64,000 nucleotides of DNA from Haladaptatus sp. R4 (GTDB taxonomy: Archaea > Halobacteriota > Halobacteria > Halobacteriales > Haladaptataceae): positions 310,001 to 374,000 of the forward strand of contig NZ_LWHG01000021.1 in the NCBI RefSeq assembly GCF_001625445.1, written 5' to 3'. The position numbers were made by a program, and so were the translations under genes. Below the pieces are notes generated by a model that was given only the letters and a program-made list of their open reading frames with translations, searched no databases and had not been told where the DNA came from. Numbering within the stretch: position 1 is the stretch's first letter; every line of letters starts with the position of its first letter. This document shows, piece by piece, positions 6,790-10,236 of this stretch.

Positions 6790-7071
6790 ATGGCGATACG
6801 CGCGGACGAGATAGAGTTGGTCGTTAGTCTCGGAATACTGCTCGTTAGTGTGGGATTGGGGACCTTGACGTACCTGACGTGGCGGCGCGAGCGCGAGCGG
6901 CGGTTGGCCGTCGTCACCGTCGCCTACGGCCTGTTCGCCTGCCGTGGACTGGCGGTCGTCTTCGAGGAGGCGGTCTTCACCGGCGTACAGCCCGAACTCA
7001 TCGACCATCTCTCGTCCCTGTTCGTCCTGTTCGGCCTCCTGCTGTTCTTCGTGGCGATAGTGCGGGAGTGA
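6790..7071 (+). CDS. Small membrane protein paired with a winged-helix regulator
   Basis: A 93-residue protein with three predicted membrane helices (about residues 9-29, 41-60 and 70-90) separated by a basic loop (WRRERERR). The stop is followed after one base by the ATG of the winged-helix gene, so the two are surely co-transcribed and probably translationally coupled. It resembles the small haloarchaeal membrane proteins that sit beside winged-helix regulators (DUF7521-like). It might sense a membrane signal for the regulator; that is inference. Confidence 0.8.
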   Translation: MAIRADEIELVVSLGILLVSVGLGTLTYLTWRRERERRLAVVTVAYGLFACRGLAVVFEEAVFTGVQPELIDHLSSLFVLFGLLLFFVAIVRE

Positions 7072-7072
7072 A

Positions 7073-7588
7073 ATGGACGAACCCGAACTCGACTCACGGC
7101 GGGCCATCTTCGGCGAGATTCGCGCGACGCCGGGGATTCACTTCCGTGAGTTACTCCGCCGACACGAGTACGCGCAAGGGACGATTCAGTACCATCTCCG
7201 ATGGCTCGAAGACGAGGGGTTGGTCGAGTCCTCCGACGACGGGAACTTCACCCGATACTATCCGGCCCACTCGTTCGAACCGGGCGACAAAACGACGATG
7301 AACGCCCTCCGTCGGAAGTACTCGCGGCGAATTATCGCCCAACTCGCGTCGGAGGACGAACTCAGCACCGCGACGTTGAGCGACCGCGTCGGGAAGTCCC
7401 GTTCGACCGTCTCGTGGCACCTCTCCCGGCTTCACGAGGAGGAAATCGTTGAAAAGGAACGCGACGGGCGCACCGTGTTGTATTCGCTTCGGGATCGCGA
7501 CCGGGTGATGCGCCTCTATGCGACCTATCAAGCGAGTCTGCGCGACCGATTGCTCGACAAAGTCCTCGACCTGTGGGACGTGTACTGA
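7073..7588 (+). CDS. Winged-helix transcriptional regulator with two HTH domains
   Basis: A 171-residue cytoplasmic DNA-binding protein with two winged-helix domains. The first (about residues 8-70) carries HFRELLRRHEYAQGTIQYHL, and the second (about 82-150) carries the ArsR-like TATLSDRVGKSRSTVSWHLSR. It has no ligand-binding domain and no Cys pairs. It is encoded one base after the small membrane protein, an arrangement repeated across haloarchaea, which suggests that the membrane partner relays the signal. Target genes unknown. Confidence 0.88.
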   Translation: MDEPELDSRRAIFGEIRATPGIHFRELLRRHEYAQGTIQYHLRWLEDEGLVESSDDGNFTRYYPAHSFEPGDKTTMNALRRKYSRRIIAQLASEDELSTATLSDRVGKSRSTVSWHLSRLHEEEIVEKERDGRTVLYSLRDRDRVMRLYATYQASLRDRLLDKVLDLWDVY

Positions 7589-8238: not shown

Positions 8239-8778
8239 TCACTGCGTCGGATTGACGAGGCTCGTTCCTTCGAGGAGTTTCAAGGCCAGCGCGAGTACCA
8301 CGAAGACGACGGACCCGACCACGAGTTGGCCGAGGAGGCCGGTCATATCGCTTCCGATGGCGACCGCGTGAACGATTCCGAACGCGAACCCGCCGTATGC
8401 GAGGGCGTGAACCGCCCCCGGATTGTCGAACCGCCGCGGTTCGAGAAAGCCCAGTGCGGCGAGGACGAGCACCACCAGCGAGACGGCACCGACGCCGACA
8501 CCAGCGAGGAACAGCGAGAGCGGGTAGTTCGGCGCGGGTGCGCTCCCATCGACGACCAACCACGCATCGACGGTTCCGACGAGGCCATGAACCGCCATCA
8601 TGCCGATGCCGAAGACGGCGAGTTCGACGTGTATTCGACGGGAAAGCCGGTGTATCAGGCCGAACCCTCGGGCGGTGAAGAAGATGCCCGTCAACACGGT
8701 CAGCCAGAGCACCGGAAAGAGCACCAGCGCCGACGCGCGGTCGAGGTACCACAGCGCGAGCGTGACGAACCCGTTCAT
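8239..8778 (-). CDS. Ferric-reductase-like / cytochrome b561-type membrane protein
   Basis: Integral membrane protein of 179 residues with about five helices. His50 and His64 are 14 apart on one helix pair and His124 and His137 are 13 apart on another, the spacing of paired heme ligands in ferric-reductase-like and YedZ-type proteins, so it could hold two b hemes across the membrane. Its ATG overlaps the stop of the upstream gene (ATGA), and that gene overlaps apbE, so the three form one operon. It probably moves electrons through the membrane to or from an extracytoplasmic flavin or metal acceptor. It has no C-terminal flavin/NAD reductase domain. Confidence 0.78.
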   Translation of the reverse strand: MNGFVTLALWYLDRASALVLFPVLWLTVLTGIFFTARGFGLIHRLSRRIHVELAVFGIGMMAVHGLVGTVDAWLVVDGSAPAPNYPLSLFLAGVGVGAVSLVVLVLAALGFLEPRRFDNPGAVHALAYGGFAFGIVHAVAIGSDMTGLLGQLVVGSVVFVVLALALKLLEGTSLVNPTQ

Positions 8779-9125
8779 GATGCGTGGGTCGTCGTCACGA
8801 CGGGACAACCCAAATCGTCCCCCTGACCGCGCCCCGCCTTGGACGGACAGTTGTCGGCGCTGTTCGGGACACCGTCCCGGTCGTCGTCGCGTCGTTGCGT
8901 CGTCGTCCCAGTTCCAGTCCCGGTTTCGTTTCCGGTCTTGGTCCCGGAACTCGTTTCAGTCCGGTGGTGATCGGTCGGCGGCGGCGTGTAGTGGACGGTC
9001 GGTTTTGCCTGTGTGTCCTGCTGATGGGTCGTTCGATACGCCATAACCCCCGACGCGAAGACGAGCGAGGCGACCACCACCACCAGCGCGATCAGCGTCC
9101 GACGACGCTTAGCGGACGTGTCCAT
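8775..9125 (-). CDS. Membrane-anchored protein with thrombospondin type 3-like calcium repeat
   Basis: A 116-residue protein with one N-terminal membrane anchor (LIALVVVVASLVFASGVMA), a long Thr/Gly/Ser/His-rich linker, and a C-terminal TSP3-like motif DDDRDGVPNSADNCPSKAG followed by a second Cys (DDLGCPV); the Asp residues are the expected calcium ligands. The ATG at 9125 is chosen because it starts the anchor directly and overlaps the 3' end of apbE by 17 bases. It is the middle gene of the apbE operon, presumably facing outside the cell. It has no clear ApbE target motif of the usual (S/T)GA(T/S) type. Confidence 0.75.
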   Translation of the reverse strand: MDTSAKRRRTLIALVVVVASLVFASGVMAYRTTHQQDTQAKPTVHYTPPPTDHHRTETSSGTKTGNETGTGTGTTTQRRDDDRDGVPNSADNCPSKAGRGQGDDLGCPVVTTTHAS

Positions 9126-10002
9126 CGAATCCCTCCGTTTCGTGAAAAACGCCCTGTCGGATGACAAGCGCCTCCGCACCCTCCCATCCCTCCGCCAAAC
9201 GAATCGCCTCGTCGGGCCGAAGCGCGGCGAGCGTGGTGGCGAGGGCGTCGGCTTCCATGCAGTCTCGACGAGCGACGACAGTCACGAGGTCGTTTCGTGA
9301 CCGGGTTCGCTTCTCGTTCGGGTTGTAGATGTGCTCGATACCGTCGCGGTTGCGTCGATAGCCGCCCGATGTAGCGACGTTCCACTCCGTCGAGAGGACG
9401 CGGAGGAGCGTCCCGGAATCGTCCGGGCTCTCGATACCGACCGGTCCGGTCGGCCGTGCGATGTCGCCGCCGCCGTCCACGAACCCGCGTCGGCCGACGC
9501 CCGAGAGCGCCTCCCGTGATCGGTCCACGATGTACCCTTTAGCGAGTCCGTTGCAATCGAGCGGTCCGTCGGTCCGCACGGTGTCCCCATCGACCGTCAC
9601 GGACGACGGTTCGAACGTCGGGTCCGGCGCTGTCGAATCCTCCCCACGGATGTACGCTTTCACCTCGTGTTCGACGGCACCGTGACGGATGTCGAAGACA
9701 CCGCCAGTTCGGTCGTAGTACGCCAATCCGCGGCGAACGATTCGCGCGACGTGACCGTTCGTGACGCTCCCCGTTCGATTCAACTCGGCGATGTGACTCG
9801 ATTCGTCGAACGCGTTCAGTTCCCGCTCCAATCGAAGCGCCGCTTCCTTCGCTCGTTCACAGGCGGAGGTCGCACGGACGCCGTCGGCACCGATGCGAAA
9901 CGTCGTATCACAGCAGTGGAAGGACGTACTGGCTCCGCCGACCGTTCCGTACAGTCGGTCCGTGGACGCCGCCAGCCGAGCGCGTATCGGAGGCCGATGC
10001 AT
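9109..10002 (-). CDS. apbE: FAD:protein FMN transferase, ApbE family
   Basis: Transfers FMN from FAD to a Thr/Ser side chain of target proteins, making covalently flavinylated electron carriers. The 297-residue protein contains the ApbE motifs LDCNGLAKGYIVD (flavin and metal binding), FVDGGGDIA, and the C-terminal DALATTLAAL. The start at 10002 (MHRPPIRARL) follows an in-frame TTG; no signal peptide or lipobox is visible, so it is probably cytoplasmic, unlike many bacterial ApbE lipoproteins. It heads an operon with a calcium-repeat membrane protein and a di-heme-type membrane protein, and its flavinylation target is not obvious among them. Confidence 0.88.
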   Translation of the reverse strand: MHRPPIRARLAASTDRLYGTVGGASTSFHCCDTTFRIGADGVRATSACERAKEAALRLERELNAFDESSHIAELNRTGSVTNGHVARIVRRGLAYYDRTGGVFDIRHGAVEHEVKAYIRGEDSTAPDPTFEPSSVTVDGDTVRTDGPLDCNGLAKGYIVDRSREALSGVGRRGFVDGGGDIARPTGPVGIESPDDSGTLLRVLSTEWNVATSGGYRRNRDGIEHIYNPNEKRTRSRNDLVTVVARRDCMEADALATTLAALRPDEAIRLAEGWEGAEALVIRQGVFHETEGFDGHVR

Positions 10003-10111
10003 GTCCAAGTATTCAAAAGCTGGAAGGATATCGATTCGCGTCCATTCATCGAACCGTCAAACGACGTCAGTCCACCCAAGAGCGACGTCCATCCGGCCAA
10101 TCAGCAATCGG

Positions 10112-10236
10112 CCATCCGTCGAATTTCCACCATCTATCCGATCATCGACCATCCGTCGAATTTCCACCATCTATCCGATCATCGACCATCCGTCGAATTT
10201 CCACCATCTATCCGATCATCGACCATCCGTCCGATC
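10112..10236. repeat. Three perfect 37-bp tandem repeats plus a partial copy
   Basis: The 37-base unit starting ccatccgtcgaatttccacc occurs three times without a mismatch at 10112-10148, 10149-10185 and 10186-10222, followed by a truncated fourth copy (ccatccgtccgatca). The repeats sit between the 3' end of acs and the start of apbE, both on the minus strand, so they lie upstream of apbE. There are no spacers, so this is not a CRISPR array. It may be a binding-site array or a slippage-generated minisatellite. Confidence 0.9.

Follow-up and report, generated by a model that had tools for sequence, protein, structure and literature searches.

Introduction

ApbE enzymes recognise the motif D-x-x-[S/T]-G-A-[S/T] and join FMN to its final residue, as set out in PMC12052999. 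The [S/T]GA[S/T] core also appears in PMC11334425. In the account given by PMC12052999, replacing the motif Asp has only a minor effect, flavinylation drops by roughly half when the Gly is changed to Ala, and flavin tagging works best at a protein terminus. The same source describes archaeal and bacterial ApbEs as mostly appearing secreted, with a few cytosolic.

The closest described arrangements are the MsrQ-like systems, which bring together a PF01794 protein, an FMN-binding domain and ApbE (Meheust et al., 2021, PMC8238504). The survey in that paper left out genes that had neither a signal peptide nor a lipidation site; an ApbE lacking such signals would therefore probably have been overlooked. 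It also counted 670 genomes that still had an apbE lacking a known substrate after DUF2271 and DUF3570 were assigned. A second set of systems, presented by Huang et al. (2024, PMC11334425), comprises DUF4405/FezC cytochromes and Flavodoxin_4 / FMN_red substrates. For archaea, the available text of PMC7226565 mentions flavinylation solely for a Sulfolobus enzyme. Our literature search, which had most subscription papers and all of bioRxiv outside its scope, found nothing on haloarchaeal ApbE flavinylation or on the cassette described below.

Here we describe an apbE locus of the haloarchaeon Haladaptatus sp. R4. Like the MsrQ-like systems, as outlined in PMC8238504, it sets ApbE beside a putative ferric-reductase-type cytochrome with two His pairs and a protein predicted to be flavinylated and to face outward. 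Unlike those systems, the membrane protein has five helices rather than six and stays below the PF01794 cut-off, and there is no FMN-binding domain. The proposed carrier is tiny and membrane-anchored with its last residue as acceptor, the ApbE is unsigned, and the host is haloarchaeal. As in the systems of PMC11334425, where FMN_red sites lie on an unstructured C-terminal extension, the neighbourhood of apbE revealed a candidate cytochrome and substrate. It differs from them in that PF14358 is unmatched, no flavin-binding fold is recognised in the carrier and the motif forms the very end of the protein. We consider it probable that the locus is a flavinylation cassette of haloarchaea, in which FMN on a tail Ser faces outward and is fed by the cytochrome.

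Results

Organisation of the locus

The window analysed is a stretch of 64,000 nucleotides of the Haladaptatus sp. R4 genome, which is 4.9 Mb in size, 95.85% complete and encodes one ApbE by profile search. A sequence-only reading of this DNA had described apbE, a gene with a thrombospondin type 3 (TSP3) repeat and a four-His gene as an overlapping row. All three lie on the minus strand, and the overlaps of 17 bases (apbE and the middle gene) and ATGA (the middle and four-His genes) were verified. The features are as follows.

9109..10002, minus strand: apbE, encoding an FAD:protein FMN transferase of 297 aa without signal peptide or lipobox (PF02424, E 3.4e-33)
8775..9125, minus strand: middle protein of 116 aa, the proposed FMN carrier, with signal-anchor, linker, one TSP3 repeat and conserved tail
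8832..8888, minus strand: TSP3 repeat of the middle protein (PF02412 match)
8778..8792, minus strand: codons for the C-terminal T-T-H-A-S, the proposed flavinylation site with the last Ser as acceptor (orthologue alignment)
8239..8778, minus strand: five-helix membrane protein of 179 aa, a proposed di-heme b cytochrome (HX13H + HX12H, fold resemblance)
7073..7588, plus strand: convergent ArsR-type winged-helix regulator (Pfam HTH_HVO_0163_N, HTH_24, HTH_5)
6790..7071, plus strand: small membrane protein of 93 aa, weakly DUF5985-like, paired with the regulator (cassette neighbourhood comparison)

A 37-base unit is repeated 3.4 times, with a 98% match, at positions 10107-10231 between an acyl/acetyl-CoA-synthetase-like gene and apbE. 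A scan of the region for bacterial promoters and terminators, which is ill-suited to archaea, gave no signal above chance.

Conservation and spread of the three genes

We surveyed 195 genomes of the order Halobacteriales with profiles. The membrane protein was found in 17, and the middle-protein profile matched exactly the same 17, never away from ApbE. ApbE was found in 19, namely these 17 and two with truncated remnants, so that full-length ApbE, middle protein and membrane protein share an identical set of 17 genomes. Neither partner gene was found beside the two truncated copies (L059 and L060), where a P-type ATPase adjoins; the unit thus appears to disappear as a whole. Haloferax volcanii, a genetic model and one of the control genomes, is absent from the ApbE matches listed for those genomes.

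A wider scan of 84,980 species, each represented by a single genome, returned 41 loci from about twenty genera. Forty have the whole trio and one, in Haloterrigena sp. H1 (contig7, L101), is frameshifted and occurs alongside three intact cassettes. An overlap of 17 bases between apbE and the middle gene recurs at 18 of 19 loci (Haladaptatus sp. R4 and the 18 others) and at 35 of the 40 loci from the species scan. Together with the perfect co-occurrence across the 195 genomes, this shows that the gene order is not due to chance. The neighbourhood survey that had been suggested as a check found the trio conserved across many haloarchaeal genera, so that the refuting outcome named with it, a lack of conservation in relatives, did not arise.

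The 19 and 40 loci, two sets that share some members, make 59 trio loci. Seven were dropped as duplicates by ApbE, leaving 52 non-redundant trios; L101 (frameshifted) and L059 and L060 (truncated apbE only) had been excluded before counting. For L042, L043, L048 and L057 a non-ATG start was taken for the membrane protein, which leaves the tail and His counts unaffected. Across the 52 rows, ApbE distances correlate with those of the membrane protein (r 0.905).

Some genomes carry two or three copies of the cassette and the ApbE tree mixes genera. The cassette therefore probably moves between lineages. The membrane protein was also found in nine plasmid records, and all four plasmids read have this order of six genes in their RefSeq annotation. 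Cassettes on large plasmids occur in several genera (L075, L081, L083 and L157-L160). In two of the four plasmid records read, an integrase or transposase lies a few kb from the cassette.

Further members of the cassette

The unit is larger than the trio. Homologues of the ArsR-type regulator and of the small membrane protein accompany the trio at 19/19 and 40/40 loci and occur in none of 40 control regions. Upstream of apbE, 17/19 and 40/40 trio loci encode a secreted, acidic protein, which is missing only at Haladaptatus sp. R4 and a congener (L041). The best candidate for it elsewhere in the Haladaptatus sp. R4 genome (E 0.02) was not accepted. No electron-donor or electron-acceptor gene is constant in the cassette.

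The regulator is labelled a metalloregulator in four plasmid records and one record has adjoining CDF and ZIP genes, which gives a hint of a metal link. Within 16-kb regions, P-type ATPases or CDF/ZIP genes were seen at 3 of 19 trio loci and 1 of 40 controls (p 0.09, not significant), and a metal role was not adopted on this basis.

A second cytochrome-b-like protein, recognised from its His pattern by eye, is encoded divergently from the trio at L044, L045, L054, L055, L071, L073, L076, L077, L081 and L083. Beside some trios its acidic outer linker ends D-E-T-G-A-S. The family occurs in 7 of the 195 genomes (6 strongly), sometimes far from the trio. All seven are trio genomes and the protein may therefore be a partner. 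We do not propose it as a second FMN acceptor, because the motif is not conserved; distant copies have TEGGS (L204) or EEGVS (L205).

ApbE and its substrate

The assignment of apbE stands, with 115.8 bits against a PF02424 cut-off of 25.6, and the best PDB matches are themselves ApbE structures (1vrm and 6nxi). Residues Ser212, His224 and Asp252 align with Ser241, His257 and Asp285 of Vibrio cholerae ApbE (6nxi), for which catalytic roles are described in PMC12052999. H224 and D252 are invariant and S212 is present in at least 90% of rows (Thr in L058). None of the 52 ApbE sequences has an N-terminal hydrophobic segment (Kyte-Doolittle window maximum 0.86, threshold 1.6) or a lipobox-like N-terminus. 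In the source genome, profile searches found no FMN_bind domain (PF04205), with zero matches in the middle protein also, and no NqrB/RnfD. The usual ApbE acceptors are therefore absent.

An ApbE confined to the cytoplasm might act on an unlinked substrate, in which case the anchored protein and the cytochrome would share its operon but work as a pair in metal sensing or in redox reactions without flavin. The uniform absence of an export signal fits such an arrangement, as do the 'metalloregulator' labels of the ArsR-type protein and the cytoplasmic ApbE of Klebsiella, which modifies a cytoplasmic enzyme according to PMC12052999. However, the three proteins co-occur perfectly, apbE overlaps the middle gene by 17 bases at nearly every locus, the genome lacks FMN_bind and NqrB/RnfD proteins, and the partner bears a tail that resembles a flavinylation site. 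We regard an unlinked substrate as unlikely.

The C-terminal tail of the middle protein

In all 52 trios the middle protein ends T-T-x-A-S-COOH. The tail is TTGAS in 47, TTRAS in four and TTHAS in one, that of Haladaptatus sp. R4; the tails with Arg or His for Gly belong to this locus, one congener and three Haloferax. None of 494 control ORFs has an [S/T].A[S/T] ending. The [S/T]GA[S/T] core is found at the extreme C-terminus in 47/52, with the T-H-A-S of Haladaptatus sp. R4 and four T-R-A-S endings deviating, and elsewhere in the trio it occurs in one of 52 ApbE proteins and none of 52 membrane proteins. The sequence-only reading saw no classical flavinylation motif in the middle protein. 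This is literally correct for the THAS end, but 47 of the 52 orthologues carry the core at that very place. Its choice between a novel acceptor motif and an FMN carrier encoded elsewhere is hence revised, and the candidate acceptor becomes the C-terminal Ser of T-T-x-A-S.

The tail outlasts other parts of the protein. At L041 and L096 the TSP3 repeat is lost and the tail retained; at L084, where the repeat is duplicated, TTGAS is on the last copy only. This argues that the tail, rather than the repeat, is held by selection. The codons point the same way. Ala is encoded by GCC (25), GCA (18) or GCG (9) and Ser by TCG (38), TCC (9), TCA (4) or TCT (1), with both residues constant in the 52 proteins, which suggests selection on the protein. 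From these alignments, the extreme C-terminal Ser is most likely the FMN acceptor.

Two features weaken the assignment. Asp is absent at -6 from the acceptor in all 52 proteins, which have Val or Ile instead (48 have Asp at -8), and five tails have His or Arg in place of Gly. Nine columns of the ApbE alignment hold residues that are shared by all five rows with His or Arg tails and rare in the other 47, and on the ApbE tree the tail must have changed two or more times. Coevolution of ApbE with the tail was not accepted as an explanation, because some of the nine-column residues are also present in basal TTGAS rows and shared ancestry is possible.

The tail overlaps the start of the next gene, and the amino acids could be kept for the sake of the RNA, as a ribosome-binding site for the downstream gene, with another protein as true acceptor. 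Most tails indeed read ACG ACG GG(G/A) GC(C/A/G) TC(N) before TAATG or TGATG, which puts a G-rich stretch near the Shine-Dalgarno position. Conversely, T-T-x-A-S persists in Haladaptatus sp. R4 and L041, where CAC or CGC has replaced the Gly codon and interrupts the G-rich stretch, and the Ala and Ser codons differ among loci at their third positions while the residues are fixed. That RNA alone explains the tail is, in our judgement, quite unlikely. The GG(G/A)G of the tail may nevertheless double as a ribosome-binding site, and an RNA effect may be part of the reason why Gly is conserved.

The body of the middle protein

As described previously, the middle protein is membrane-anchored and has a calcium-type repeat; the TSP_3 profile (PF02412) matches at 26.5 bits, with a cut-off of 25. 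A hydrophobic anchor is present in 52/52 middle proteins and in every one the charge is more positive before the anchor than after it. The predicted topology is N-in/C-out, with the tail outward. A structure model of the protein is mostly disordered (pLDDT 59). The Thr/Ser/Gly-rich outer stretch singled out by the sequence-only reading is peculiar to the Haladaptatus sp. R4 locus and is not the likely acceptor. Nor is the TSP3 repeat an essential part of the unit, given its loss at L041 and L096. The L041 protein (L041:7960-8295, minus strand) has in its stead a stretch rich in E, H, D and Y that resembles the tail of the acidic upstream protein. That protein is missing at L041, so the two may have fused.

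RefSeq names the middle protein 'thrombospondin type 3 repeat-containing protein' and its GO label is 'cell adhesion'. It is very improbable that calcium-dependent adhesion or another surface role is the protein's main function, with the cytochrome serving ordinary respiration: the above-cut-off repeat and the RefSeq name would suit such a role, but a single short repeat is the rule in orthologues, as in Haladaptatus sp. R4, the two proteins without a repeat keep anchor and tail, and the profile never matches away from ApbE in the 195 genomes.

The five-helix membrane protein

The heme-type spacing of four His noted earlier holds, with 13 residues between H50 and H64 and 12 between H124 and H137 (HX13H + HX12H). 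All four are invariant in the 52 proteins. AlphaFold2 predicts a protein of five helices (mean pLDDT 81, pTM 0.71). The best Foldseek matches are STEAP1, STEAP2, cytochrome b561 and NADPH oxidases (NOX), none at E <= 0.001. VIA-align gave Z scores of 10-11, a range that helical bundles can reach by chance and that has limited weight.

Profile searches agree with a distant relationship. The Haladaptatus sp. R4 protein is unmatched by PF01794 (Ferric_reduct, cut-off 28 bits). Among 35 members, 24 match at E <= 1 (best E 4e-4), all below the cut-off, and four members examined singly scored 11.6-19.9 bits. DUF4405 (PF14358) matched none of the 35 at E <= 1, and NCBIfam models gave scattered weak matches only. 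The one match from a PDB sequence search with the membrane-protein profile was judged to be chance. Beyond the order, the same profile picks up ferric-reductase-like proteins in 14 genomes among 392 of the phylum. One of five such relatives scanned exceeds the PF01794 cut-off. Thirteen of the 14 loci were read, some over only 7 kb, and none has ApbE alongside. We propose that the membrane protein is a ferric-reductase/NOX/STEAP-like cytochrome, for which the model gives a weak fold match. The spacing and the fold suggest that the four His bind two b hemes.

Discussion

The sequence-only reading proposed an extracytoplasmic electron-transfer unit. Its core, a conserved set of ApbE, anchored carrier and di-heme-like protein, survives; the parts that do not are the TSP3 repeat as an essential element and an acceptor in the Thr/Ser/Gly-rich stretch. 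The gene order and overlaps, the co-occurrence, the invariant tail, the four invariant His and the fold resemblance are the observations from which a mechanism can be drawn. ApbE would transfer FMN from FAD to the last Ser of the T-T-[G/R/H]-A-S tail. The middle protein would then carry FMN as a swinging arm on a short stalk, which in most cases would be stiffened by calcium. The five-helix protein would hold two b hemes stacked across the membrane, the inner one between H50 and H124 and the outer one between H64 and H137. This protein would take up electrons from a cytoplasmic-side or quinone-side donor and pass them to the outward FMN, and the tethered FMN would hand them to an extracellular acceptor. 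Expression of the cassette would be controlled by the convergent ArsR-type regulator.

The main puzzle is an ApbE without export signal whose proposed target faces outward. ApbE might be exported by an unrecognised route, which is possible. The simplest explanation, though speculative, is that, since enzyme and target appear to be on opposite sides, ApbE acts on the tail in the cytoplasm, probably ahead of membrane insertion or while it is under way. A C-terminal tail is the last part to be made and would be the last to cross the membrane, having been flavinylated inside. The full proposal, in which a cytoplasmic archaeal ApbE loads a natural C-terminal flavin tag before export and the FMN tail becomes the outward arm of a minimal five-helix di-heme cytochrome, is tentative and somewhat less likely than not to hold in every part.

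Two described cases come close to such a tag. In the trypanosomatid fumarate reductase, as presented in PMC8065229, there is likewise a terminal motif with Ser as acceptor and an ApbE domain acting inside the cell, as we propose here. Unlike that glycosomal enzyme, which has its motif at the extreme N-terminus of one polypeptide, the haloarchaeal protein, which is membrane-anchored, would be modified at the C-terminus and in trans. The engineered flavin-tag of PMC12052999 is similar in that a short terminal peptide there suffices for ApbE; the tag proposed here differs in being natural and C-terminal and in having no Asp at -6. We infer that the cassette is a variant of flavinylation-based transmembrane electron transfer, with a natural C-terminal flavin tag as the proposed acceptor.

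The cassette offers a candidate substrate for an orphan ApbE of haloarchaea, namely a very small protein that would accept FMN at its last residue. This would bring outward flavin-based electron transfer to these organisms and give a relative of the NOX/STEAP-type fold pared down to five helices. It also raises the question of how a protein destined for the outside would receive FMN from an unsigned ApbE. If our proposal is true, the middle protein would represent a new substrate class and the cassette would be, within the scope of our literature search, the first flavinylation system described for haloarchaea. Loading of the cofactor would then have been solved for cells without a periplasm that holds FAD.
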